A DNA stretch of 64,000 bases from Microbacteriaceae bacterium VKM Ac-2855 (lineage in GTDB: Bacteria > Actinomycetota > Actinomycetes > Actinomycetales > Microbacteriaceae): contig JABMLG010000004.1 of NCBI GenBank assembly GCA_013204985.1, positions 310,001 to 374,000 of the forward strand. Direction: 5' to 3'. The translations under genes were made by a program, and so were the position numbers. Within the stretch, counting starts at the first letter, position 1. Each line of letters starts with the position of its first letter. Below the pieces are notes generated by a model that had not been told where the DNA came from, ran no database searches, and saw only the letters and a program-made list of their open reading frames with translations. Shown piece by piece: positions 14,609-29,324 of the stretch.

Positions 14609-14650
14609 TCGCTCGGTTCACGGCGTCGAGGAACGGCAACCGCGCTCCTT

Positions 14651-15125
14651 CGCGCGAGGCGCCGCGCGGCGAACGTGGTGTCAAAGAAACGGCAACCCGT
14701 ACCTCCCCCATGACGGAAACGCCATCCCACCGTCGCGCTGCGCGGCCTGTCGTGCTGCGCGGCCCACAGTCATGAGGGTTGCCGTTTCTTTGACGAGCGC
14801 CGCGCGGCGAACGTCGTGTCAAAGAAACGGCAACCCCTACCCCCTCCACGACGGAAACGCCATCGCACCGTCGCGCTGCGCGTCCTGTCGTGCTGCGCGG
14901 CCCACAGTCATGAGGGTTGCCGTTTCTTTGACGAGCGTCGCGCGGCGAACGTCGTGTCAAAGAAACGGCAACCCCTACCCCCTCCACGACGGAAGCGCCA
15001 TCGCACCCCGGTCGTGTCAGACCGCCCGATCGCGCCGGCACCGGCAGCCATAGGGTTGCCGTTTCTTTGACGAGCGCCGCGCGGCGAACGTGGCGTCAAA
15101 GAAACGGCAACCCGGCCGCGTCGCG
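14651..15125. repeat. 138-bp tandem array built on a 19-bp palindrome half (family P5)
   Basis: The 19-mer GTCAAAGAAACGGCAACCC occurs at 14680, 14818, 14956 and 15095, and its reverse complement at 14776, 14914 and 15053, so direct and inverted copies alternate with a 138-139 bp period. Between them lie stretches rich in GCGCGGCGAACGT and TGCGCGGCCCACAGTCATGA. A solitary half-copy is found at 48639-48657. No protein-coding sequence is credible in this stretch. Confidence 0.95.
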
Positions 15126-15904: not shown

Positions 15905-16182
15905 GTTTCTTCTCTTCCTCCGATTGCGTGTCCGGCGGCGGGGCACGGGCAGGGGCGATCGGAAGGAGCGCAGTGCGGAGTCCAGCGCGTCGGGTTTATC
16001 CAACGTTTGTTGCTCTATACATTACTCCCTTGAGACCGCATCCTGGCAGGCCCTGAATTCCTCGTCGATTCTCTCCGATATTCGCCGTGATCGGCTCTTT
16101 TGCGCGCGGCTCCCGGATCCTAGACTTCGATCGGACCGGGACGCACCGACGCGTTCCGCCCTCTCCAGACGCGAGGTGGGTC

Positions 16183-18423
16183 ATGAGCACCCGAAGCATG
16201 TCGTGGGCGCAGTTCGCCGCGATCCGAGCGAACGCGACAACGCTGCCCTGGCTGGCGCGTCTTCGTATCGACGACGCGCATCCGCCCGTGTCGGTCATCC
16301 GGATCTCGATGGCCGAGCGGCGAGGCGAGCCGCGCACGGTTCTGCTGCGGCTCGCGGTCGACCATGAGCAGTTGCTCGTCTTCAGCCGCACCGGAGCGAT
16401 CGTCTGGCTCACCGATGCCGGTACCGGGCGGCACGAGCTCACCCTCGCCGTCGCTTCCGAACTCGATGCGCTCTACATCGCTTCGTTCCACGGGCGCCGA
16501 GGCGCGATGATTCCCGAGTCAGAAACCGCGACGGATGCCGGCGTGCTCGAACGGCACTGGTTCGACGGCCAGGAGATCGGTGGCCGGCGAGTGGGCGGCC
16601 GGCGCGTGGGCGGCCGGGGTGAACCCTCGGTCGAGGTCGAGATTCAGCGAGCGCCGACCGCGTCGATGGCACCTCCGCCCGCCGCACCACCCCCTCCCGT
16701 ACCCGACGTCGCCGACGTCGATCTCCCCCAGCTCGATCTGCCCGACGTTGATCTCCCCCAGTTCGATCTGCCCGCCGTTGACCTCCCCCAGTTCGATCTG
16801 CCCGCCGTCGACCACCCTCCGTTCGACCTGCCCGCCCTCGAGGTCGCCGAGGCCGAGGCCGCGCCCACCCCCGCACGTCGCCGACGCCGACCGGCCCGGG
16901 TGCGCGGCAGCGCGACCGGCGCGATACCGCCCGAGGTGGAGGTCGACGAACCGTTCGAGGTCGCGTTCACCCTCAGCGGGCCCGGCGTCGCTCCCGCCGC
17001 CGGCGCCGCGGTGTTCGCCGTCGCGCCCGACCACGACCTCGAGGTGCAGCTCCTTCGCCGGCGCAACGTGCTTCTCGAACCGGGCGAACCGGATCCGCTG
17101 CGCGTGCGCCTCCCGATCGGCAGCCGCAGCGAGCACTACGTCTTCCGGGCACGGGCGTCGGATGCGGGCCCGGTCGAGATCGAGCTGAGGATCACCCAGG
17201 ACGGCGAGCACCTCGGCACCATCCCGTTGCGCGGCCTCGCCACCACCACCGCATCCTCCACGGCCGGATCCCCAGTGGCCACGACCATCGACGCCAGTCG
17301 GTACCCGCAGAACTGGCTGTTCCAAATCACCGATGGCGCCGGGAATCCGCCGGCCGGCAAACGCGTGCTGCGCTACACCCTGCGCGGGAGTGACGGCACG
17401 GATGCGAGCTGGGACCAGATCCTGAACAGTGACGGCCTGCTCACCCGGCTCTACCGCGACATCGAGCAGGTGTGGCGGGCCATCGCCGAGAGCCCGGCCA
17501 CGACCGAAGAGCGCCACGCCGCTTGGACGGCGGCGCTCGCCGATCGGGGTCGGCGGATGTTCCGCGACCTGCTGCCTCTCGAGGCGCGCCGCGCGCTCTG
17601 GGCGCGGCGCCACGAACTCCGCGACATCCTGCTCTCGACGAACGAGACCGAGATCCCGTGGGAGATCGTGCTGGTGCACGATCCCGACGATCCCGACGCA
17701 CCCGACGAGCCGGAAGCGGTCGCTGCGGATGACGGTCCGTTCTTCCTCGGCGAGCGCGGCTTGTTCCGCTGGCTCACGGGCACCGTGCAGCGCGACACCG
17801 TGCGGATCGACGCCCCGCACGCCTTCGTCGTCGCTCCCGCCGGCGGCCCGGCCGCGGCGGGCGGCGAAGCCGAATTCGTCACCACATGCATCCGGGCGCA
17901 GCGGATCGACCCCGCCGACGTCGCGCGGATGACGGCCGCGCTGTCGACCGCCAAGCTCTCGCTGTTCCATTTCGCCGGGCACGCGATGGTGGACGATCAG
18001 GTGGCACCGCCCTTGCAGCAGCTGATGCTCGCGGAGGCCGGCCGATACTCGGTCGCCGATCTCGAGCGCACCCTGCCCGTCATCGGTCGCCGGCCCGGGC
18101 CGTTGACCGGGGCGACCGTGCTGTTGAACGCGTGCCGCAGCGGCGTGCTGCCGACCTCATCCGCCGGTTTCGGCACGGTGTTCCTGCGCGCAGGGGCCAG
18201 CGTGTTCATCGGCACGCTCTGGTCGATCGGCGACGATCCGGCGGCCGACTTCTCTCGCGCCTTCTACGGCGAGCTGCTCGCAGCCAAGGCGCGACGCCGC
18301 CGCGCCCGCCTCGGCGCCGCTCTCGCCGCCGGCCGCGATGCCGCGCGCGCGAGCGGCGACCCGAGCTGGCTGGCGTACGCCGTGTACGCCGACCCCGCCA
18401 CGACCGTGTCGGTCTCGGTCTGA
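16183..18423 (+). CDS. CHAT-domain (clan CD cysteine protease) protein with spacer repeat and beta-sandwich domain
   Basis: 746 residues from ATG 16183, preceded by GAGGTGGG. Residues 1-110 form a small mixed domain. Residues 165-220 are proline-rich with a repeated VDLPQFDLPA unit. Residues 247-352 look like an immunoglobulin-type beta-sandwich (EVDEPFEVAFTLSG... EIELRIT). A strand/loop around 378-401 has the form WLFQITDGAGNPPAGKRVLR. The C-terminal CHAT protease covers about 480-740, with catalytic His600 in FHFAGHA and Cys651 in LLNACRSG, followed by GTLWSIGDDPAADFSRAFY. CHAT proteins are caspase-like peptidases used in bacterial immunity and regulated cell death. The next gene, 168 bp downstream on the same strand, encodes a second His/Cys peptidase of the same clan, so the two probably act together. 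Substrate and trigger are unknown. Confidence 0.88.
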   Translation: MSTRSMSWAQFAAIRANATTLPWLARLRIDDAHPPVSVIRISMAERRGEPRTVLLRLAVDHEQLLVFSRTGAIVWLTDAGTGRHELTLAVASELDALYIASFHGRRGAMIPESETATDAGVLERHWFDGQEIGGRRVGGRRVGGRGEPSVEVEIQRAPTASMAPPPAAPPPPVPDVADVDLPQLDLPDVDLPQFDLPAVDLPQFDLPAVDHPPFDLPALEVAEAEAAPTPARRRRRPARVRGSATGAIPPEVEVDEPFEVAFTLSGPGVAPAAGAAVFAVAPDHDLEVQLLRRRNVLLEPGEPDPLRVRLPIGSRSEHYVFRARASDAGPVEIELRITQDGEHLGTIPLRGLATTTASSTAGSPVATTIDASRYPQNWLFQITDGAGNPPAGKRVLRYTLRGSDGTDASWDQILNSDGLLTRLYRDIEQVWRAIAESPATTEERHAAWTAALADRGRRMFRDLLPLEARRALWARRHELRDILLSTNETEIPWEIVLVHDPDDPDAPDEPEAVAADDGPFFLGERGLFRWLTGTVQRDTVRIDAPHAFVVAPAGGPAAAGGEAEFVTTCIRAQRIDPADVARMTAALSTAKLSLFHFAGHAMVDDQVAPPLQQLMLAEAGRYSVADLERTLPVIGRRPGPLTGATVLLNACRSGVLPTSSAGFGTVFLRAGASVFIGTLWSIGDDPAADFSRAFYGELLAAKARRRRARLGAALAAGRDAARASGDPSWLAYAVYADPATTVSVSV

Positions 18424-18476
18424 TGTCGGTCTCGCTCTGATGTCGATCTCGCCCCCATAGTCGATCCCGCTCGGAG

Positions 18477-18570
18477 CCACGCGCATCCGCACATCGAAAC
18501 CCGCACAGGGCACGCGCATCCGCACATCGAAACCCGAACAGGGCACCCGCACCCGCACACCAGCACCCCA
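18477..18570. repeat. 33-bp tandem repeat, about three units
   Basis: Units start at 18477, 18510 and 18543 and contain CATCCGCACATCGAAACCC. They fill most of the gap between the CHAT gene and the caspase-fusion gene, where a promoter or leader would be expected. The unit length equals that at 12.8 kb but the sequence differs. Confidence 0.85.
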
Positions 18571-18591
18571 CTCCTACAGGAAAGGCCCGCC

Positions 18592-20742
18592 ATGACCACC
18601 GAAGACGCACGCGGTCGCCGCTACAGCACGGAGGAGATCGCCACGCTGAAGAAGCACGTGATCGCGATGAAGAACGGGCGGCTGATCGACCCGCGCGACG
18701 GCGACGCCCTCCTCATCACGACGTCCGCCGACCTCGACGCGCTGGTGAACACGCATCTGGCGGGTTTCGTCGAGAAGCAGCGTGCCGCGAAGCCGCAGGC
18801 GGCCGTGCCGATCATGCTGCACGCGCACGGCGGCCTCGTGCCGCCCGCATCCGCCCTCGACTACGCGCTGCACACCATCGACTGGTGGCTCGGCATGGGG
18901 GTGTATCCGCTCTACTTCGTCTGGGACAGCAACATCTGGGATGCACTCGGCGACGCGATGACGGATGCGATGAAGGGGTGGTGGACGGAGGGTCGCGGCG
19001 ACTTCATCGACGGTCAGATCGAATTGCTCCTGCGCAACGTGCTCGGTCCGCGGGTGTGGGGCGCGATGAAGGACGACGCGAGAGCCTCATCGGATGCGCG
19101 GGTGGGCGGCGCGTACCGCCTCGCGACCGAACTCGGCGCCTACCTCGCCGGCCACGCGGACGAGGTCAGCGTGAACGCCGTCGGCCACAGCGCCGGCTCG
19201 ATCTTCCACGCGCACTTCCTCCCGGTACTCCTGCAGAGCGGAGCGAAAGAGATCCGGACGCTCTCGCTGCTCGCACCGGCCGTGCGCGTCGACACCTTTC
19301 AGGCACTCGTCGCTCCACTGCTGCGCAACGGCGGCCTCGGCGAGGTCGCCGTATTCACCATGGACGACGCGACCGAGCAGAACGACAACTGCTTCACGGC
19401 CTACCAGAAGTCGCTGCTCTACCTCGTGCGCGGCGCCTTCGAGGCTGAATACGAGGCTCCCCTGCTGGGCCTGCAGATCGCGATCGATGCGGACGCGGAC
19501 CTGAGGCGGCTGTTCGGCCGCGACGGCACCTCGCCGGCGCGCGCCGATCTGGTGTTCTCGCCCGGTTCGGCGGGCCCGCGCTCCGAGAGCGGCTCGACCA
19601 GCCATGGCCGCTTCGACACCGACCCCGCCACGATGCAGAGCGTGGCCCGGCGCATCGTCGGGCGCGCGAAGGTCCCCGACTTCCCGCCGACTGGCGAGAG
19701 CGGTCGAGGCGATGGCCGGGTGGACGGCTACATGCCCTACGAGGTGCCGCCGATCCGACTCGAGTCGACCGTGCAGCCGCATCGCACCCGGCGGGCGGTC
19801 TGCATCGGCATCGACCGCTACGCCGAGCGTCCGCTGCACGGCTGCGTGGCGGATGCGCTCGCGTGGCAGGCCGCGCTGGAGCAGCTCGGCTTCGACGTGC
19901 TCGCCCTGCACGATGAGGCCGCGACGAAGAGCCGGATCCTGCGCGAGATCACTCTGCTCGTCGCCAATAGCCGGCCGGGCGACAGCATCGTGGTGCAGTA
20001 CGCGGGCCATGGCACCGAGGTGCCCGACCTCGACGGCGATGAGGCTGTGCGGCGCGGACCGGACGCGAAGAAGGACCAGGCCCTGGTGCCTTACGGCTCG
20101 GGCCTCGGCACCACGAGCGGCGAGTACGTGATCGACGACGACCTCGGCCGCATCTGGGACACCGTGCCCGAGGGGGTGCACCTGACGGTGTTCTTCGACT
20201 CGTGTCGCTCGGGCGATGCCGTGCGCGGACCCGAGCTGGTCGCCAGCGGAACGGCGGAGGCGGCGATCGCGGCGGCCGCATCCGTCGACGGGCTCGAAGC
20301 GCGCGTGATGGTGCTCGACACGGTGCAGGAGGAGGCCTACCGCGCAGCGCGGGGTACGCCGACGACCGTGACGAGCGTGACGACGGATGCGGCCGTGAGC
20401 TTCAGCGCCTGCTCCCCGGTTCAAGTCGCGTACGAGAACAATCGGCGAGGCGTGTTCTCCGTCGCAGCCGTACCGCTGCTTGCGAGCAGCGTCGGCCTGC
20501 TGACGAACGCGCAGTTCATCGACAAAGTCGTTGCGGCGCTGGGCACGAATCCGCAGCAGAACCCGGGCTATTACGGTCCGGATGCGTTCCGGTCGCGACC
20601 GTTGTTGGGCGTTCCGTTCACGGATGCACCGCCTGAGAGCGAGTCGCCGCTGCCCGTGCTTCGGTCCGCCACCCGCTCCGGCGCTGACCCGGCGAAGCTC
20701 GCCGCGTTCCTCCGCGCCACCGCCGATCTGCTCGAGGGCTGA
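18592..20742 (+). CDS. Serine hydrolase (alpha/beta)-caspase fusion protein
   Basis: 716 residues from ATG 18592 with CAGGAAAGG upstream. The N-terminal half (about 70-290) is an alpha/beta-hydrolase-like domain: oxyanion-type HAHGGL at 77-82 and nucleophile elbow VGHSAGS with Ser200. The C-terminal half (about 398-690) is a caspase-like peptidase (Peptidase_C14): RRAVCIGIDRYAERPLHGC, catalytic His473 in QYAGHG, Cys538 in FFDSCRSGD. A basic/Gly/Ser linker lies between. The arrangement suggests that the caspase and hydrolase activities control one another or act as twin effectors. It follows the CHAT protease gene, and together they form a candidate conflict or cell-death module. No signal peptide or membrane segment is apparent, so it is expected in the cytosol. 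Confidence 0.88.
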   Translation: MTTEDARGRRYSTEEIATLKKHVIAMKNGRLIDPRDGDALLITTSADLDALVNTHLAGFVEKQRAAKPQAAVPIMLHAHGGLVPPASALDYALHTIDWWLGMGVYPLYFVWDSNIWDALGDAMTDAMKGWWTEGRGDFIDGQIELLLRNVLGPRVWGAMKDDARASSDARVGGAYRLATELGAYLAGHADEVSVNAVGHSAGSIFHAHFLPVLLQSGAKEIRTLSLLAPAVRVDTFQALVAPLLRNGGLGEVAVFTMDDATEQNDNCFTAYQKSLLYLVRGAFEAEYEAPLLGLQIAIDADADLRRLFGRDGTSPARADLVFSPGSAGPRSESGSTSHGRFDTDPATMQSVARRIVGRAKVPDFPPTGESGRGDGRVDGYMPYEVPPIRLESTVQPHRTRRAVCIGIDRYAERPLHGCVADALAWQAALEQLGFDVLALHDEAATKSRILREITLLVANSRPGDSIVVQYAGHGTEVPDLDGDEAVRRGPDAKKDQALVPYGSGLGTTSGEYVIDDDLGRIWDTVPEGVHLTVFFDSCRSGDAVRGPELVASGTAEAAIAAAASVDGLEARVMVLDTVQEEAYRAARGTPTTVTSVTTDAAVSFSACSPVQVAYENNRRGVFSVAAVPLLASSVGLLTNAQFIDKVVAALGTNPQQNPGYYGPDAFRSRPLLGVPFTDAPPESESPLPVLRSATRSGADPAKLAAFLRATADLLEG

Positions 20743-20765
20743 CGCGGCGCATCTGCTGCATATGA

Positions 20766-21436
20766 CCTCCGGGAAGGACGTCCCGGCCGGGTGAGGAAGA
20801 ACCGGGCCCGTTCTTCCTCACCCGGCCCGATCATCCTCCGGCGAGGACACGAGAGACGCCCTGTCTCAGCACATCGGTGCAACCCGACCCGCCACACCCC
20901 GACGCCGTCCTTCCTCCGGGAAGGACGTCCCGGCCGGATACGGAAGGACCGGGCCCGTTCTTCCTCACCCGGCCCGATCCTCCTCCGGCGAGGACACGAG
21001 AGACGCCCTGTCTCAGCACATCGGTGACCATCCAACCCGCCACACCGCGACGCCGTTCTTCCTCCGGGAAGGACGTCCCGGCCGGATCAGGAAGAACCGG
21101 GCCCGTTCCTCCTCCACCAGTGTGTTCCTCCTCCGGCGAGGACACGAGACCCCCTGTCTCAGCACATCGGTGACCATCCAACCGCCACCCGACGCCGTTC
21201 TTCCTCCGGGAAGGACGTCCCGGCCGGATCAGGAAGAACCGGGCCCGTTCTTCCTCGCCCGGCCCGATCCTCCTCCGGCGAGGACACGAGAGACCCCCTG
21301 TCTCAGCACATCGGTGACAACCCGACCCGCCACACCCCGATGCCGCTCTTCCTCCGGGAAGGACGTTCCGGCCGGATAAGGAAGAACCGGGCCCGTTCTT
21401 CCTCACCCGGCCCGATCCTCCTCCGGCGAGGAGACA
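20766..21436. repeat. 142-148-bp tandem array, five units (family P6)
   Basis: Units begin with CCTCCGGGAAGGACGT at 20766, 20913, 21061, 21203 and 21351. Each contains a near-perfect 25-bp palindrome around ACCGGGCCCG flanked by GGAAGA and TTCTTCC, and a constant CCTGTCTCAGCACATCGGTG. The array fills the 728-bp gap between two convergent genes. No coding frame is preserved from unit to unit because unit lengths are not multiples of three. Confidence 0.95.
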
Positions 21437-21470
21437 CGGCGCCGTGACAACCTCCTCCGCCCACCCCGAG

Positions 21471-22748
21471 TTACAAGCGCCCCACCGTCTCGATGTCCTC
21501 CAAGAACTCCGCGTGGGTCTCGGCCGACACCGTGGTGCGGGTGGCGGCGATCGCGGCCACGTAGTCCTCGGTGGCGGGGCCGTTCGCATCCGTCGCCCCG
21601 GCGTAGACCGCGTTCTCGAGCGCTGATTGCGAGGCCTTGCGGGCCGCGTACTCGATGTCGGCCGGCGAGAATCCTTCGGTCATCCCGACGAGCACGGCGA
21701 GGTCGATGTCGACAGCGGCGGCGGGGATGTACCGTTCCCAGATCGCGGTGCGCGCCTGCTGGTCGGGCAACCCGATCGGGATCACGTAGTCGAAGCGTCC
21801 GTGACGGAGAAACGCCGAATCGAGCGCGCGGATGAAGTTGGTCGCGCAGATCAACAGCCGATCCGACTGCTCGCGGAACGCCGGGATGATCTTCAGCAGC
21901 TCGTTCGTCACACCCTGCGTCGGCGACGGCGGCTCACCCTGGCGGTGCGAGGCGATCTCCTCCACCTCGTCGATGAACACCACCGCGTGCTCGAGATCCT
22001 TGATCTTGAGGAACGTGTCGCGCAGCGCCCCGGCGAGACCCGCCGGATCGGAGGCGAGCCGCGAGGGGAAGACCTCGACGAACGACCATTCCAGGCGCGA
22101 GGCGATGGCCTTCGCGAAGGTGGTCTTACCGGTGCCGGGAGGGCCGAAGAGCACCACCGCGCGCGGCGGCGCGACCCCGAACCGCTCGGCCAGCTGCGGC
22201 TGCGCCAACGGCATCACGAGGCGCCGCTCGAGCATCTCCTTCTCGGCGGTCATGCCACCGACGCTCTCCCAGAGGCCGCGCGGCAGCACGCGTCCGCCGA
22301 GCTCGGCGAGCAGCTTCAGCTCTTCGCGCTGCACCGGGATGTGCCGCTCGAAGTAGTGCAGGTTCTGCTTCTGCTCGAAGCCCTGGTGACGGAAGGCACC
22401 GACCCGGGTCTCCGCCGCGGGCATCAGCGCCGAGAGCTTCGACATGCCGAACGGCGCCATCCGAGCCTCGAGCGCCGCCAGCAGTGAGGATCCGATGCCC
22501 TGGCCCTGAGAGTCTGTCGCGGTGGCGAGGAAGACGACCCAGCCTTGCGCGTGCGCGGCACGACCGACGGCTGCGCCCACCACCTGATCGCCGATGACGG
22601 CGACGACCGCGTGATCCTTCGCACAGGAGGCCAGCACCTCGGCGAGGTTGTAGACGGGTTCGGAATCGGCGGCGGTGACCTGCTCCCAGAGCCGCAGGAT
22701 CCCGTCGACGTCGTCGGCGTGATAGTCGCGGATGCGCCAGCTGGTCAT
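21471..22748 (-). CDS. GNAT acetyltransferase fused to an AAA+ ATPase
   Basis: 425 residues. Residues 1-135 are a GNAT domain with the acetyl-CoA loop QGQGIGSSLL (81-90) and a C-terminal 'VGAFRHQGFEQ' strand. A linker leads to an AAA+ module: Walker A FGPPGTGKTT (201-210), Walker B VVFIDE (256-261), sensor ATNF (302-305), and arginine-containing RHGRFD (315-320), with a small helical lid ending near 390. The ATPase part is closest to FtsH/Cdc48-type classic AAA domains. The fusion suggests ATP-driven unfolding or remodelling coupled to acetylation, but no substrate is known. It is convergent with the caspase gene across the tandem array and divergent from the helicase gene. Confidence 0.88.
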   Translation of the reverse strand: MTSWRIRDYHADDVDGILRLWEQVTAADSEPVYNLAEVLASCAKDHAVVAVIGDQVVGAAVGRAAHAQGWVVFLATATDSQGQGIGSSLLAALEARMAPFGMSKLSALMPAAETRVGAFRHQGFEQKQNLHYFERHIPVQREELKLLAELGGRVLPRGLWESVGGMTAEKEMLERRLVMPLAQPQLAERFGVAPPRAVVLFGPPGTGKTTFAKAIASRLEWSFVEVFPSRLASDPAGLAGALRDTFLKIKDLEHAVVFIDEVEEIASHRQGEPPSPTQGVTNELLKIIPAFREQSDRLLICATNFIRALDSAFLRHGRFDYVIPIGLPDQQARTAIWERYIPAAAVDIDLAVLVGMTEGFSPADIEYAARKASQSALENAVYAGATDANGPATEDYVAAIAATRTTVSAETHAEFLEDIETVGRL

Positions 22749-22910
22749 GTCGTTCTCCTCGGACTTCGGTATCTGCCTGCGAGCCTAGCGCGCCATCGGC
22801 ACATTTGTTAGGACAAACTGCGCAACCTCTCCCGCCGGGCGAGGTTACGAGCAGACATGGCGGATGCGGGTGCCCCGGCGCGCGCGAGCCGCTTCGGCCC
22901 CGCCCCGGCT

Positions 22911-22916
22911 TACGGT
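22911..22916 (+). promoter_or_regulatory. -10 box candidate for the large helicase gene
   Basis: TACGGT lies 30 nt before GTG 22947, leaving room for a short leader with the GCGGAG ribosome site. Confidence 0.35.
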
Positions 22917-22946
22917 GGAACCGGCGGACGGCGAGCGGAGACACAC

Positions 22947-25900
22947 GTGACCACCAGCAACACCGAATACGTCGAGAGGGCACTCGGCCTGCTCGTCGAC
23001 GGCATCGAACCCGCGCTCGTCCGCGAGGTCGCGCCGCAGCTGCGCGAGGGGATGCCGTGGACGGCACTGCTGGGCAACAAGACCAGCAGCGACCCGCACG
23101 ATCCCGCGCTCGTGCTGCGGGCGATCACCGAATCGCTCGGCCCGCTGGGTCGGCCGTTCGAGGAGAGACTGGGCCGCGCCGGCCTCGTCGCGGCCGAGGA
23201 GCTGCTGCGCGTCCTGCCGGGTGACGGCAAGGCCGACGACAGCGATGAGCAGGTGACGCGGGTGATCAACGCCGCCACGAGCATCCTCCGCCGCTTCGAG
23301 GTCGACACCGCCCCGCTCACCACCCTCCGCGACGAGTTCGATGCGCAACACGGCCGATCGACGCAGCCGCAGCCGTCCTCCGGCACCTGGCAGGCGTACG
23401 CCCCGATCGCCGAGATCGATCTCTCGTGCGCCGACGTGCTCTCGTACGCGATGGCGCACAACCGCCTGACCGCGATCGATCAGCTCAGTATCCGCAACAC
23501 CGGCGCCGCACAGCGCGGGGTGCGCCTCAGCGTCGAGATCGCGACGGATGCGGGCCCCGTCGCGGCCACGGTCGAGCGCTTCGTCGACCTCGCCGACGGC
23601 TCGGCGGAGCCCGCGGAGACGATCGTGCCGCAGCTCGACATCGTCGCCGATCCGGCCGTGACGCTCGGCATCGAGGAGGCGCGCCCGGCGACGGTCACCG
23701 CGACGCTGACCCGGGAGGACGGCGTCGTTCTCGGGCGGGCGACCCGCGCCGTGCTCCTGCTCGCCGCGCAGCAGTGGCTCGCCCGGCCGCTGCCGATGTC
23801 GCTCGAGCTGCTCGCCGCGCACGTGCAGCCGAATCATCCGACGCTGCAGGCGCTGATCGACGAGGCGACTCTGCACCTCGAGGCCGAGACCGGATCCGCG
23901 GCTCTGGTGGGCTACCAGCAGGGGCCGGAGCGCGTCGACCAGACGGCCGCGGCGATCCTGCGCGCGATCCGCGCCCGCCGCATCCGCTACAGCGTTCCTC
24001 CAGCGAGCTGGTCGGACGACGGCCAGAAGGTGCGCACCCCCGCGGAGGTGCTCGACTACCGCCTCGGCACCTGCCTTGACACGAGTGTGGTCGTGGCCGC
24101 GGCCCTCGAGCGCGTGGGCATTCGTCCGCTGCTGTTCGTGGTCGAGGGGCACGCCTTCGCCGGCTATTGGCGCGAGGAGCAGAGCCTCGGCTCGCCGGCG
24201 CAGACCGAGGTCGCGAGCATCGTCAATTACGTCGACCTCGACCTGATCCGCGTGATCGAGACGACCATGCTCACGGAGGATCATGCGGATGTGAGCCTGG
24301 CGGAGATGCAGCGCTTGCCTCGCGAGCAGCACCTCCGGGGTGACCTCGCGAGCGTGATCGGCGTCACCGACGTGTATCAGGCCCGGCGCAGCCGGATCCT
24401 GCCGCTGCCGGCACGGACGACCGAGGCGAACGGGGCCGTGACGGTCATCGAGTACACCGCGACGCACTCGCAGCCGGCCGCCTTCGTGCCGGAGCGCCGC
24501 GAATCCACCGCCGAGCGGACGCCGGCCCCGCCGCGCGTCGCCCGCTGGAAGAACGCGCTGCTCGACCTCAGCCTGCGCAACCGGCTGATCAACTTCACCG
24601 ACCGGGCTCGCTTTCCGCTCGGTGTTCCGGAGGAGACGGTCGCCGAGTTCGAGGACCTGATCAACAGTGGCAAGCCGGTCACACTGATCCCCTCGGACGA
24701 GCTGGCAGCCGTCGACCGGCAACGCGGCATCCGCCTCGGACGAGAACTCGCTACCGAGGCCTTGACCGAGCTGCTCCGCGCCAAGCGGCAGGTTTACACC
24801 GAGGTCACCGCCGAGAGCTATGCGACGCGGATGCGCGCGCTGGCCTACAAAGCCCGCACGATCGTGGAGGAGAGCGGGGCCAACAACCTCTACCTCGCGA
24901 TCGGATCGCTGGTCTGGCAGAGCCGCGACCGGGTGCTGCGATCGCCCCTCGTGCTGGTACCGGTGACGCTCAAGCCGCTCAGCCGAGGCGGCGCCTATCA
25001 GCTCGTGCTCGACGAGGCCGGGGCCTCCACTCCGAACTACTGCCTCCTCGAGAAGCTGCGCGCCGACACAGGCGTGACGATTCCCGGCTTGGCCAACCCG
25101 GCGGGCGACGACGCCGGCATTCATGTGACCGCCGCCCTGCGAGCCGTGCGCGAGGCGATCGCCGCCGCGGGGCTCACGGCACACGTCGAACCGACCGTCG
25201 ACCTCGCGATCCTGCAGTTCGCGAAGTTCCGGCTGTGGAAGGACCTCGACGAGAACTGGGAGGCGCTCGCCGCGAATCCGTTGGTCCGTCACCTCATCGA
25301 GTCGCCGGCGGATGCGTTCACCGACCCTGCTGCGGCGCGCGCCGACCCGGCGCCCGACCTCGATCAACTGCTCACGGAGCTGCCGGTGCCGGCGGACTCG
25401 TCGCAGCTCGGTGCGGTCGCAGCGGCGAGCGCCGGCCGCACCTTCGTGCTCGAGGGCCCGCCCGGTACGGGAAAGTCGCAGACCATCACCAATCTGCTCG
25501 CCAAGGCGATCGGAGACGGCAAGCGCGTGCTCTTCGTCGCCGAGAAACGCGCCGCTCTCGATGTGGTGCAGCGTCGTCTGGCAAGTGTCGGGCTGGAGCC
25601 GTTCGCGCTCGACCTGCACGACAAGGGTTCCAAGCCCGCCGTCGTGCGGCAGAAGCTGAAGGCCTCGCTGGCCCAGCGGAGCAGCGTCGACGTCGAAGGG
25701 ATGCAGGCGGCGAGCGACACGATCGACGCTTCGCGCCGCGCGCTCGCCCGCTATACGAACCGTCTGCACGAACCGAACCCGGCCGGGCTGAGCCTGTACG
25801 CCGCTCGGGGCGCCGAACTCGCCACCGCGGACGCACCGTTCGCGCTCCCGGTACCGGTCGAGTGGGCCGGGCGGATCGCCTCCGCCGAGCTGGCACCGCT

Positions 25901-28900
25901 GCGGATGCTGCTGCGCGAGCTGCCCGACGCCGCCGACCGCGCGAGGCCGGCGCGCGAGCATCCGTGGGGCTTCGTCACGCGCAGCGAAGCGGCCGCGGAT
26001 GAACGGATCGCCGCCGCAACGCGCGCGCTCGACGCCGCGATCGATGCACTCGCGCCGAGCGAGGAGTTGAACCGGGTGCTGGTCGAGGCGAGCACCCCCG
26101 ACCAGTTCGCCGCGCTCGCGGCGATGGCCGGCGCCGTGCCCCTGCCGTTGGAGATCCTCGCTGCGACGAGATCGGCCTTCTGGAATCAATCGACCGAGCA
26201 GATCGAGCACGACCTCTCGCGGCTGCCCACCCAGTTCGGCGACGTGCTCGCGCTGGTCTCGACCGAGGTGCTCACCCTCGACGCGAAGCGCCTGCACGCC
26301 GAGGCCGTTGCCGCCCACGAGTCGGGATTCTTCGGCCGTAAGGGTCGCCGCCGCGCAGTGTCGGCCCAGTTCGCGGCGTTGCTGCGGCCGGGTCAGGTGC
26401 TGAACCTCAAACTGCTGCCGCAGATCACGCAGCGCTTCGTCGAACTGGATGACGCCGTCGCCGCGCTGCGGACCCTGATCAACACCACCGCGGGGCTGAG
26501 GGTCGCCCCCGGCTGGAATCCGTTGAACACAGCGGAGGCGGAGGCGGTCGGCCAGCAAGTGCGCTGGATGCGCTGGCTCGCGAGCGCGACCGCTCCGGTC
26601 AGCGACCCGGCCGATGCCGGCTTCCGTTCCGCGCTCTCCTCCTACGCCGTCACGGAGCGTCCGGGCGATCCGGCGGTAGCCTCCCGCGTCACCGCGGTCG
26701 GCTCCGCGCTCACCGCCCTGCTCGAGGCGGCGGGACCCACCCCGGCCCAGTGGACCGCCTGGCTCGGTGGCCGCAGACTGCTCGACGCCTGGTGGGCGAC
26801 CCGCGCCGGCCGTGACGCCGATCGTGCGGGCTCGGTGAGCGTGGCGTCGTGGACCGCGTGGCTGAGAGCGCTCGAGCCGTTGCGTGCGGTCGGGCTGACG
26901 GCCGCGGCGGATGCGCTGCTGCCGGGCGAAGTACCCGCCGACGACGCACTGCGCGCCTTCGAGCGCGGTTTCGCTGCCGCCGCCCGCACGGAACGCGCGC
27001 GCAGCACCGGCCTCGAGAGCTTCGACGCCGTCACGCACGGCCGGGCGATCGAACGCTTCACAACCGCCTCCGAGCAACTGCGCGGCGAGCTGCCGAGGGC
27101 CATCCCCCACGAGTTGCTCGGCCGGCGACGCTTCGATCCCAGCACTGACGGCGGCCAAGTCGGCCTGCTGCGCCGGCAGCTCGAGCGCCAGCGCGGTGGG
27201 ATGAGCGTCCGCGAGCTGATGAGCGAGTTCGGCGAGCTGATCACGCAGATCACGCCGTGCGTCCTGGTGAGCCCCGACTCCGTCGCACGCTTCTTCCCGG
27301 CGCAGGGCGGGCTCTTCGACGTGGTCGTTTTCGACGAGGCCTCTCAGGTGCGGGTCGCGGATGCGATCGGTGCGATGGGGCGTGCCGCCTCCGTCGTCGT
27401 CGTCGGCGATAGCAAGCAGATGCCGCCGACCGTCTTCGCCGAGCCGGGTTCGGGCGACGCCGAGGAGGACGTCTTCGACGTGAGCGAGCTGGCGACCGAG
27501 GACGAGGAATCGATCCTTTCGGAGTGCGTGCAGTCGCGGGTGGAGAGCCGCTGGCTCTCGTGGCACTACCGCAGCCAGGACGAGTCGCTGATCGCGTTCT
27601 CGAACCGCTTCTACTACGAGAACCAGTTGACATCCTTCCCCTCCCCCGCGCACGGCACGGTCGACGGTGGCGCGAACGGGCACGGTATCTCGTGGCGACG
27701 GATCAACGGTACGTTCCTCCGCTCCGGATCGGCCAAGACGCTCCGCACCAACCGTGCTGAAGCGGATGCGATCGTCGACGAGATCATCGCGCGGTTCCGC
27801 AGCTCGCCCGACACCGTCCCCTCGCTCGGCGTGGTCACGTTCAACGCGCAACAGCGCACCCTGATCGAGTCGTTGCTGCGCGATGCCGGCGACCCGCGCA
27901 TCGTCGAGGCGCTCGATGCGGTGGACGGCCTGTTCGTGAAGAATCTCGAGAACGTGCAGGGCGACGAACGCGACACGATCCTGTTCTCGACCGCGTTCAG
28001 CGCGAACGAGAAGGGTGTGCTGCCACTGAACTTCGGGCCGCTGACCCGCTTCGGCGGCGAGCGACGATTGAACGTGGCGATCACCCGCGCGCGACGTCAG
28101 GTGGTGCTCTTCTCGAGCTTCGACCCGGCAGACCTCCGTGCCGAGGAGACCTCGTCCGTCGGGATCAAGCACCTGCGTGCGTACCTCGAGGTGGCTCGCG
28201 GTGGCGCGGAGGCGACGCTGGGCTCGCTGGCGCAGACCGCCACGACCGATCGGCATCGCGAGGAGATCGCGAAGGCGCTGCGCGAGCGCGGTTTCGCCGT
28301 GCAGACCGATGTGGGCCTCTCGGACTTCCGGGTCGATCTGGCCGTGGCGTCGCCCGGCGCCGCGGAGAGCCCCGTGCTCGCCGTGCTTCTGGACGGCCCC
28401 GCCTGGGCGGCTCGCCGGACCGTCGCCGACCGCGACGGCCTGCCGCTCGAGGTGCTCTCGCGGCTGATGCACTGGCCGTCGGTGCAGCGCGTGTGGCTGC
28501 CCGAATGGCTCGCCGACCCGGAGGGGGTGGTGGCGCGTCTCGCGTCCGCGGCCGAGAATCCGGAGCCGGTGACCGATGCACCCGCTGCCGACGCGCCCGC
28601 TACCGGCGCGCCGGTCACCAGCGCACCCGTCAGCGACGCACCGGCCGACGACCGGCCTGTCTCCGACGCACCGGTCGGCGACGAGCCGCCGCACGACGAT
28701 CTCGGCGAGGCGCGGGAGGCTCGCGCCGAACGACGCACGGCTGCCGACGCTCCGGACTACGGACCGAACGCGACCGCCTATGTCTCGTGGCTGCCGCATC
28801 CGACGGGCGGAGTCGAGGTGCTCGACTCGCTCGACACGGCGCGCAGCGCGAGCGCGGTGCGTGCCGTGCTGCTCGAAGTGGTGAACGCGGAGGGCCCCGT

Positions 28901-29324
28901 CCACCTGGGGGCGCTCGCCAAGCAGGTGGGCGCTGCATTCGGTCTCGGCACGGTCAGTGCCGCCCGAGCGCAGTCGATCCTGAAACTGCTGCCGACCGAG
29001 CTGACGATCACGAACGACGTCGCGCGATTCGCGTGGCCCGAGGGCATCGATCCGGCCACGTGGCTGGGCTATCGCGTTCCCGCCGCCGGCACCGCGCGCC
29101 CGATCGATTCGATCTCGGCGCACGAGGTGGCCAATGCGATGACGGAGCTCGCTCGAGCCGCGGGCGGCATCGAGGAGGACGAGCTGCTGAAAGCCACTCA
29201 TCGGGTCTTCGGCGGCCGGCGCCGCACGCCGGCGATCGAGGCCGAGCTGCGTCGGGGTCTCGCGCACGCGCTCGAGAGCGGGCGGATCCGGGTCGAGGGC
29301 GCGCTGCTGCTGGCCGAGGAGTGA
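22947..29324 (+). CDS. Giant HEPN-like/transglutaminase/DUF4011 helicase/Vsr/DUF3320 protein
   Basis: 2125 residues from GTG 22947 (GCGGAG upstream); the frame is open from 22857. Approximate order: N-terminal Swt1-type HEPN-like helical domain (1-120); a beta-rich region; transglutaminase-like core with Cys in GTCLD (about 376) and His in EGHAFAGYW (about 401); DUF4011 with SLRNRLINF (about 538); superfamily 1 helicase with Walker A GPPGTGKSQT (about 836), VVVFDEAS (about 1459), GDSKQMPPT (about 1486) and ITRARRQVVLFS (about 1711); a Vsr/MTES-like nuclease-fold domain (about 1768-1860); a low-complexity Asp/Ala/Pro linker; and DUF3320 at the end. DUF4011-helicase-Vsr proteins of this kind have been reported as single-gene anti-phage systems (Hhe type). 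A defence role is inferred from architecture and the neighbouring protease genes. Confidence 0.87.
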   Translation: MTTSNTEYVERALGLLVDGIEPALVREVAPQLREGMPWTALLGNKTSSDPHDPALVLRAITESLGPLGRPFEERLGRAGLVAAEELLRVLPGDGKADDSDEQVTRVINAATSILRRFEVDTAPLTTLRDEFDAQHGRSTQPQPSSGTWQAYAPIAEIDLSCADVLSYAMAHNRLTAIDQLSIRNTGAAQRGVRLSVEIATDAGPVAATVERFVDLADGSAEPAETIVPQLDIVADPAVTLGIEEARPATVTATLTREDGVVLGRATRAVLLLAAQQWLARPLPMSLELLAAHVQPNHPTLQALIDEATLHLEAETGSAALVGYQQGPERVDQTAAAILRAIRARRIRYSVPPASWSDDGQKVRTPAEVLDYRLGTCLDTSVVVAAALERVGIRPLLFVVEGHAFAGYWREEQSLGSPAQTEVASIVNYVDLDLIRVIETTMLTEDHADVSLAEMQRLPREQHLRGDLASVIGVTDVYQARRSRILPLPARTTEANGAVTVIEYTATHSQPAAFVPERRESTAERTPAPPRVARWKNALLDLSLRNRLINFTDRARFPLGVPEETVAEFEDLINSGKPVTLIPSDELAAVDRQRGIRLGRELATEALTELLRAKRQVYTEVTAESYATRMRALAYKARTIVEESGANNLYLAIGSLVWQSRDRVLRSPLVLVPVTLKPLSRGGAYQLVLDEAGASTPNYCLLEKLRADTGVTIPGLANPAGDDAGIHVTAALRAVREAIAAAGLTAHVEPTVDLAILQFAKFRLWKDLDENWEALAANPLVRHLIESPADAFTDPAAARADPAPDLDQLLTELPVPADSSQLGAVAAASAGRTFVLEGPPGTGKSQTITNLLAKAIGDGKRVLFVAEKRAALDVVQRRLASVGLEPFALDLHDKGSKPAVVRQKLKASLAQRSSVDVEGMQAASDTIDASRRALARYTNRLHEPNPAGLSLYAARGAELATADAPFALPVPVEWAGRIASAELAPLRMLLRELPDAADRARPAREHPWGFVTRSEAAADERIAAATRALDAAIDALAPSEELNRVLVEASTPDQFAALAAMAGAVPLPLEILAATRSAFWNQSTEQIEHDLSRLPTQFGDVLALVSTEVLTLDAKRLHAEAVAAHESGFFGRKGRRRAVSAQFAALLRPGQVLNLKLLPQITQRFVELDDAVAALRTLINTTAGLRVAPGWNPLNTAEAEAVGQQVRWMRWLASATAPVSDPADAGFRSALSSYAVTERPGDPAVASRVTAVGSALTALLEAAGPTPAQWTAWLGGRRLLDAWWATRAGRDADRAGSVSVASWTAWLRALEPLRAVGLTAAADALLPGEVPADDALRAFERGFAAAARTERARSTGLESFDAVTHGRAIERFTTASEQLRGELPRAIPHELLGRRRFDPSTDGGQVGLLRRQLERQRGGMSVRELMSEFGELITQITPCVLVSPDSVARFFPAQGGLFDVVVFDEASQVRVADAIGAMGRAASVVVVGDSKQMPPTVFAEPGSGDAEEDVFDVSELATEDEESILSECVQSRVESRWLSWHYRSQDESLIAFSNRFYYENQLTSFPSPAHGTVDGGANGHGISWRRINGTFLRSGSAKTLRTNRAEADAIVDEIIARFRSSPDTVPSLGVVTFNAQQRTLIESLLRDAGDPRIVEALDAVDGLFVKNLENVQGDERDTILFSTAFSANEKGVLPLNFGPLTRFGGERRLNVAITRARRQVVLFSSFDPADLRAEETSSVGIKHLRAYLEVARGGAEATLGSLAQTATTDRHREEIAKALRERGFAVQTDVGLSDFRVDLAVASPGAAESPVLAVLLDGPAWAARRTVADRDGLPLEVLSRLMHWPSVQRVWLPEWLADPEGVVARLASAAENPEPVTDAPAADAPATGAPVTSAPVSDAPADDRPVSDAPVGDEPPHDDLGEAREARAERRTAADAPDYGPNATAYVSWLPHPTGGVEVLDSLDTARSASAVRAVLLEVVNAEGPVHLGALAKQVGAAFGLGTVSAARAQSILKLLPTELTITNDVARFAWPEGIDPATWLGYRVPAAGTARPIDSISAHEVANAMTELARAAGGIEEDELLKATHRVFGGRRRTPAIEAELRRGLAHALESGRIRVEGALLLAEE

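Follow-up and report, generated by a model that had tools for sequence, protein, structure and literature searches.

The window analysed here, a stretch of 64,000 nucleotides from Microbacteriaceae bacterium VKM Ac-2855, carries two consecutive genes on its + strand, gene A (16183..18423) and gene B (18592..20742), which are 168 bp apart. Both are open on that strand and have a coding-type composition (GC3 0.86 for A and 0.89 for B). Gene A encodes a 746-aa protein with a variable N-terminal region (residues ~1-110), a Pro-rich repeat spacer, DUF7363 and a CHAT protease domain. Its longest open reading frame begins at a GTG at 16087, and the ATG at 16183 agrees with the homologues. Gene B encodes a 716-aa protein in which a serine-hydrolase-like domain is fused to a metacaspase-type peptidase. 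All features of the two genes described below lie on the + strand.

Gene A encodes a predicted CHAT protease

Pfam places DUF7363 (PF24063, E 2e-11) at 16924..17229 and a CHAT domain (PF12770, E 3e-13; 50.3 bits versus a cut-off of 24) at 17908..18306. An earlier reading of the same DNA, made from the sequence only, had assigned A to the clan CD peptidases with an intact dyad. The CHAT match is consistent with this, as are His600 (in HFAGH; codon 17980-17982) and Cys651 (in LNACRSG; codon 18133-18135), both placed by alignment and given in the 746-aa numbering. The two residues are near-invariant among relatives: His600 is found in 15/15 and Cys651 in 14/15 aligned A proteins, both of them together in 14/15, and the other A proteins share just 21-33% identity with that of the window. 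In a profile search against solved sequences, the CHAT profile of A aligned with PDB entries 8rot and 8tl0, the latter being a SAVED-CHAT protein according to the available text of PMC11417357. Besides DUF7363 and CHAT, Pfam returned a weak C25 match for A at E up to 1, SAVED was not matched, and PADLOC gave no match of any kind. Judged by its profile match and His/Cys dyad, A is a putative CHAT protease.

The VDLPQFDLPA-type spacer previously pointed out in the first protein was also recovered. It is encoded by a 30-nt tandem repeat of 4.3 copies at 16712..16841; judged by eye, the other 13 aligned A sequences lack it. At another site, the window's own genome encodes a further protein of the CHAT type, whose N-terminus is hydrophobic (L016 7375-9414; G000:C24:163413-164270).

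Gene B combines a hydrolase-like domain with a predicted metacaspase

The C-terminal half of B contains a Peptidase_C14 / metacaspase-like domain (19789..20574; Pfam, E 3e-20) with His473, Cys538 and Asp515-Asp516. Counting only B rows with a letter at the respective position, His473 is conserved in 68/70, Cys538 in 69/71 and Asp515-Asp516 in 70/70 rows; Asp residues of this kind bind calcium in metacaspases. A profile search for solved relatives returned 3bij (uncharacterized GSU0716) first, followed by the metacaspases 4f6o, 6w8s and 8a53, and PADLOC matches B to its 'caspase' model (E 1e-16). The Pfam match, the conserved dyad and the nearest solved relatives argue for a metacaspase or orthocaspase (C14), in agreement with the earlier claim of a clan CD peptidase with His473/Cys538.

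The hydrolase-like domain covers 18598..19704 (~370 residues) and includes an HGG motif (79-81), Ser200 within GHSAG, Glu262/Asp265 and His338. In an alignment of 77 rows, from which papain-fused relatives were excluded, Ser200 and His338 are conserved in 77/77 and Glu262, Asp265 and His79 in 76/77 rows. The nucleophile elbow GxSxG and the order Ser-acid-His are thus kept in 76-77 of the 77 rows, which by alignment supports the complete catalytic set proposed for this half of the protein. The proposed alpha/beta-hydrolase fold fared less clearly: Ser200 and the motif order speak for it, but at E 0.05 none of 51 members of the domain matched any hydrolase family in Pfam, and no solved structure (PDB sequences) matched its profile. 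Matches to DUF900/Abhydrolase_6 were weak, stayed below the cut-off and came only from papain-fused or split hydrolase relatives. When the domain was compared with two ordinary hydrolases by hhalign, the elbow region alone was aligned (E 0.0058 and 0.025; Rossmann control 0.1). Because there is no Pfam or PDB match, the label 'alpha/beta hydrolase' rests on HGG, GHSAG, the residue order and the weak matches of divergent relatives; the N-terminal half of B is probably a serine hydrolase of the alpha/beta type (esterase or lipase). No conserved cleavage motif was seen in the linker of B.

A and B form a conserved pair

B is rare. Its hydrolase profile matched 9 of 299 genomes sampled from the family, seven of them strongly (E < 1e-100), and B was found in 8 of 296 genomes sampled from the class and in 3 of 15 genomes searched within the genus, the window's own counted. 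The A profile gave seven matches in six of the 299 family genomes. Wherever A was near full length (model position <=141 to >=684, of 687), it directly adjoined B (4/4 cases), showing that the homologues do occur together; the three remaining matches span only positions ~391-685, which is the CHAT part. DUF7363 matched four times in the 296 class genomes. The three matches above the cut-off are gene A adjoining B, and the fourth (G386, E 1e-4, below the cut-off) lies in a genome without B at the threshold used. The three genomes with a strong B match and no A all fall in one genus (g96); the B locus of G111, from this genus, has a second caspase gene and an HExxH protein.

A scan with one genome per species yielded 506 relatives of the hydrolase domain confirmed by tblastn, and the best 80 were analysed. 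At 12 of these 80, an A-type CHAT gene either immediately precedes the hydrolase gene or shares its ORF. At four Hymenobacter loci a CHAT gene lies directly downstream of an amidase-hydrolase-metacaspase gene, at Azospirillum L065 CHAT is part of the same polypeptide, and at L066 and L099 CHAT is farther from the hydrolase gene. In total, 19 of the best 80 of 506 are CHAT-linked, a raw count from a best-scoring set that is not a random draw.

Ten unfused A-B pairs have gaps of -4 to 168 bp, with a 4-bp overlap in three. A single 1497-aa ORF of Agromyces sp. Soil535 (L034) comprises both A and B; a second pair in the same strain (L044) is 32% (A) and 46% (B) identical to it. In Azospirillum canadense (L065 9284-14257), amidase, hydrolase, metacaspase and CHAT form one 1657-aa ORF, in which the CHAT match in Pfam is below the cut-off and the His motif is degenerate by eye. 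The distances among A proteins correlate with those among B proteins (r = 0.93, n = 12 pairs; 0/5000 permutations as high), a value to which shared species history contributes. The claim of a conserved pair therefore holds across several actinobacterial genera, in which the genes are adjacent, overlapping or fused and diverge together, and A and B almost certainly act together.

Locus gene calls were faulty at L027, L120 and L122, and A of L027 and L122 was taken from six-frame ORFs. Clustering of conserved neighbours on raw ORFs was dominated by antisense ORFs and was abandoned in favour of gene calls. In Sinomonas cellulolyticus (L026 9609-9992), A is reduced to a 127-aa N-terminal remnant that shares a 4-bp overlap with an intact B.

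Other partners of the hydrolase core

A quick tree of 84 rows has long branches, with clustered labels and an unsure deep order. In 38 of its rows, the hydrolase domain is combined in one protein with a metacaspase and an Amidase_2 domain at the N-terminus. These come mostly from outside Actinobacteria (Pseudomonadota, Bacteroidota, Chloroflexota, Armatimonadota and others). An N-terminal papain-like domain occurs on the hydrolase in 7/84 rows (rhizobia, Eleftheria, actinobacteria, Granulosicoccus), and in 2/84 (Mesorhizobium and one actinobacterium) hydrolase and caspase are encoded by two neighbouring genes. An amidase alone accompanies it in 2/84 rows, and for 2/84 a partner domain was not found. 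These counts mean that a cysteine peptidase accompanies the hydrolase domain in 80/84 rows, which suggests that the usual companions of the domain are predicted cysteine proteases and that the core has swappable partners. The idea of a functional pair is supported in that A keeps to B, but B often occurs without A, as in Cryobacterium/Arthrobacter and most amidase-fused forms, which makes A one partner among several.

Instead of CHAT, the Cryobacterium/Arthrobacter B loci carry a divergent HExxH...HE gene and a separate caspase. HExxH-type genes near B were located at L124 10324-11994, L041 8075-9727 and L030 8052-9788; the HExxH...HE motifs were seen by eye in L124 and L041, and L124 matches Pfam M4 at E 0.045. 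In Granulosicoccus (L105 9152-14133), a papain-hydrolase gene adjoins an amidase-hydrolase-metacaspase gene.

A-B is a hypervariable cassette at a fixed locus

The window is collinear over ~40 kb with the congeneric Microbacteriaceae bacterium VKM Ac-2854 (G008). For 32 collinear proteins in the flanks, identity between the two genomes is 57-100% (median 84%); one gene with a 31% non-collinear match and five without a match are excluded from this count. The direct neighbours of the pair reach 93% (SDR) and 96% (AAA). Identity is 32% for A (68% covered) and 43% for B (91% covered). This divergence is evenly spread along both proteins and ends abruptly close to the borders of the genes.

Pairs with CHAT in other genera also differ from their flanks. 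In three collinear Agromyces pairs, the CHAT-protein and B are 52-63% and 61-73% identical versus flank medians of 82-88%; three Hymenobacter pairs show 44-69% and 52-70% versus 81-88%, and the one Sinomonas pair with an intact A shows 60% and 66% versus 84%. Two Sinomonas pairs with an A remnant have B at 67% and 70% versus flanks at 80% and 78%. Without CHAT, B tracks the flanks in 28 Cryobacterium pairs (82-93% and 80-94%) and is somewhat below them in Arthrobacter (78-85% versus 87-88%), Polaromonas (85-89% versus 93-95%) and P. fluorescens (90% versus 94%). In Granulosicoccus, B is clearly below the flanks (68-74% versus 78-86%) although CHAT is missing, which weakens a strict link of fast divergence with CHAT.

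Genomic context and a VMAP-type locus

Downstream of B (window 21471-29324) lie a GNAT domain fused to an AAA ATPase and then a 2155-aa DUF4011-helicase-REase protein, which PADLOC assigns to its IetA/TRIP13-like and PDC-S37/Hhe models, respectively. The G008 locus has both genes (96% and 79% identical). When 91 of 150 listed neighbours from 11 A-B loci (L045 not included) were scanned with PADLOC, strong defence matches were of just these two kinds and could be placed only in G008, which shares the island of the window. Further matches (mad2 in four members; RmuC-, DEDDh-, GlgB- and PDC-S48-type models) were read as generic, and at most A-B loci the neighbours look like housekeeping genes on reading, e.g., rpoB/rpoC-like (L046, L056) or ribosomal-protein-like (L034). 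Location in defence islands was consequently dropped as a general rule: it applies to the island shared by the window and G008, and VMAP-type genes occur at L045, but no such setting is apparent at the remaining loci of the scan.

No relative of B was confirmed on viral contigs. Among plasmids, one Hymenobacter record has a partial A-like CHAT match and one Kovacikia record covers at least 80% of B. The pair has no CRISPR, tRNA or Rfam link, and no CRISPR-like spaced repeat was seen on reading 8-34 kb.

The locus L045 of Agromyces cavernae encodes, in this order, an alpha/beta hydrolase, a caspase with VMAP-C (E 2e-10), a MoxR-like AAA protein (match below the family cut-off) and a SAV_2336-domain protein. 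The N-terminal domain of the latter matches SAV_2336 at E 4e-103, and its C-terminus consists of hydrolase, metacaspase and CHAT. By domain content, this single locus has the predicted layout of a VMAP ternary system with the B-CHAT module in effector position, in which the SAV_2336 protein would be the vWA component. L045 has lost the His of the HGG motif, that of the caspase and the Cys of CHAT; together with the degenerate CHAT His of L065, this indicates that non-catalytic roles exist. According to the available text of PMC7159879, every caspase of VMAP systems has a neighbouring alpha/beta-hydrolase gene and ~70% of the effector-position caspases are inactive. A role in conflict or defence, as suggested by the sequence-only reading, is thus supported in outline by the effector position at L045 and by hypervariability at a fixed locus, but not by defence islands, which are not the rule.

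Comparison with known systems

Pairs of alpha/beta-hydrolase and caspase, amidase-metacaspases and SAVED-CHAT cascades are already known. In bacterial gasdermin systems, a membrane-damaging effector is activated by a protease. The proposed role of B is similar in that a damaging effector would be protease-activated, but no gasdermin was matched in the 10 window neighbours scanned. The cascade of the type III-B CRISPR SAVED-CHAT system studied by Steens et al. in 2024 reportedly includes a caspase step. Here, too, a CHAT protease would stand upstream of a caspase-family enzyme; however, A has no SAVED match, no cas gene was matched in the same 10 neighbours, and the caspase of the window is fused to a hydrolase. 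SAVED-CHAT confers immunity via a proteolytic cascade, as stated in the available text of PMC11229360.

VMAP-MoxR-vWA systems (Kaur et al. 2020, PMC7159879) resemble the pair by domain type in bringing caspase and alpha/beta-hydrolase together, and at L045 the B-CHAT module is fused to a SAV_2336-type component. In contrast, no VMAP-C, MoxR or vWA is among the matches listed for the 10 window neighbours (for the AAA gene, 25/37 families), and hydrolase and caspase form one protein with a CHAT partner; the term 'CHAT' has 0 occurrences in the main text of that paper. Four Amidase_2-metacaspase proteins, one of them from Polaromonas (PMC3501461), may belong with the amidase-hydrolase-metacaspase relatives (Polaromonas L051, L055, L071), a grouping by description. 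They differ in that the available text reports no intervening hydrolase except one GDSL lipase case, and 'CHAT' has 0 occurrences in it. In canu, as far as the available text of PMC12799240 goes, a caspase unlocks a pro-nuclease. As proposed for B, a linked latent enzyme is activated by a caspase there, protease and partner coevolve, and Ig-like domains are present, which we count as a likeness by the earlier Ig-like label of A. The canu effector, however, is an MBL-fold nuclease, and none was matched among the 10 scanned neighbours. The titles and abstract openings searched, a coverage that lacks most subscription journals, contained no description of a hydrolase-metacaspase with a CHAT gene as its partner.

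Proposed function and alternative explanations

Considering that the relatives adjoin and change together, the pair resembles a compact switch for cell damage that is complete in itself. We propose that A and B could be a self-contained two-gene protease relay for regulated self-damage, in which B would be a latent enzyme, a serine hydrolase tethered to a metacaspase. The N-terminal region of A and DUF7363 would detect a trigger or partner, or dock to it, and the CHAT domain of A would then cleave B or switch it on, most probably in the linker between hydrolase and metacaspase or in the intersubunit loop of the metacaspase. Active B might damage or arrest its own cell by ester or membrane hydrolysis and proteolysis, against an invader or stress. 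The assignment of A as initiator, B as executioner and the hydrolase as the damaging part follows by analogy the SAVED-CHAT and canu schemes. We infer the order of action, the self-targeting, the trigger, the hydrolase substrate and the hydrolase fold. We give a two-gene CHAT-to-metacaspase relay that controls the fused hydrolase a probability of roughly 45%.

A wider proposal is more doubtful, namely a stand-alone immune or self-destruct system in which a CHAT initiator acts on a metacaspase-hydrolase executioner, with an unclassified lipase-like killer, a co-diversified cassette and a core recoupled across phyla to CHAT, papain, second caspases or amidases. If true, the relay would extend bacterial programmed cell death by a pair of initiator and executioner proteases that includes its own hydrolase in compact two-gene form, and would mark a hydrolase domain that no Pfam model covers and that has 506 relatives by tblastn. 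With a median flank identity of 84% versus 32-43% for the pair, selection and cassette exchange can be tested directly against each other.

Rather than acting against phages, the core might work with peptidoglycan enzymes as an envelope-lysis or developmental autolysis module that lyses or remodels the cell in development or competition, with CHAT only timing the event. Amidase_2 accompanies the caspase in 38/84 tree rows, mostly from outside Actinobacteria, the papain-hydrolase gene of Rhizobium is preceded by a DUF2272/SH3 gene, and the available text of Asplund-Samuelsson 2012 (PMC3501461) ties amidase-metacaspases to autolysis. A scan of A, B and 10 neighbouring genes, however, found no amidase domain. 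Hydropathy alone gives no evidence of a signal peptide or membrane helix, and conflict is a better fit for the hypervariability. We therefore consider an autolytic function rather unlikely.

Alternatively, A could control B by binding instead of cutting, as a scaffold or inhibitor whose protease is incidental or self-directed. The tight co-divergence of A and B, the loss of the CHAT Cys at L045 and the retention of only the N-terminal part of A beside an intact B at L026 would all fit such a role. That 14/15 A proteins jointly keep the CHAT His and Cys at such low identity to the window's A argues against it and makes it unlikely compared with the relay. It is similarly improbable that the difference between the window and G008 reflects a one-off replacement of the pair by an ancient allele that came from a different lineage, with no selection and with A and B as ordinary accessory enzymes. 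The even divergence along both genes and its sharp stop near their borders are as expected of such an event, but the Agromyces, Sinomonas and Hymenobacter pairs also diverge faster than their flanks, and exchange of cassettes is in any case frequent at conflict loci. Finally, B is commonly found without A, but a chance neighbourhood of functionally unrelated genes is hardly conceivable in view of the 4/4 adjacency in the family sample, the fusions at three loci in two phyla and the co-divergence.

Two repeat arrays were observed around the pair. Directly downstream of B (window 20751-21446) lie tandem copies of a ~146-nt unit, whose core (GAGACNCCCTGTCTCAGCACATCGG, <=2 mismatches) has four matches in the genome, all at 20751-21446, and none in G008 or in G014, a further genome of the genus. 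At window 14637-15113, 138-nt tandem units contain a 20-nt inverted repeat (GGGTTGCCGTTTCTTTGACG) that represents a dispersed REP-like family: at <=2 mismatches it has 170 matches in the window's own genome, 9 in G008 and 0 in G014.
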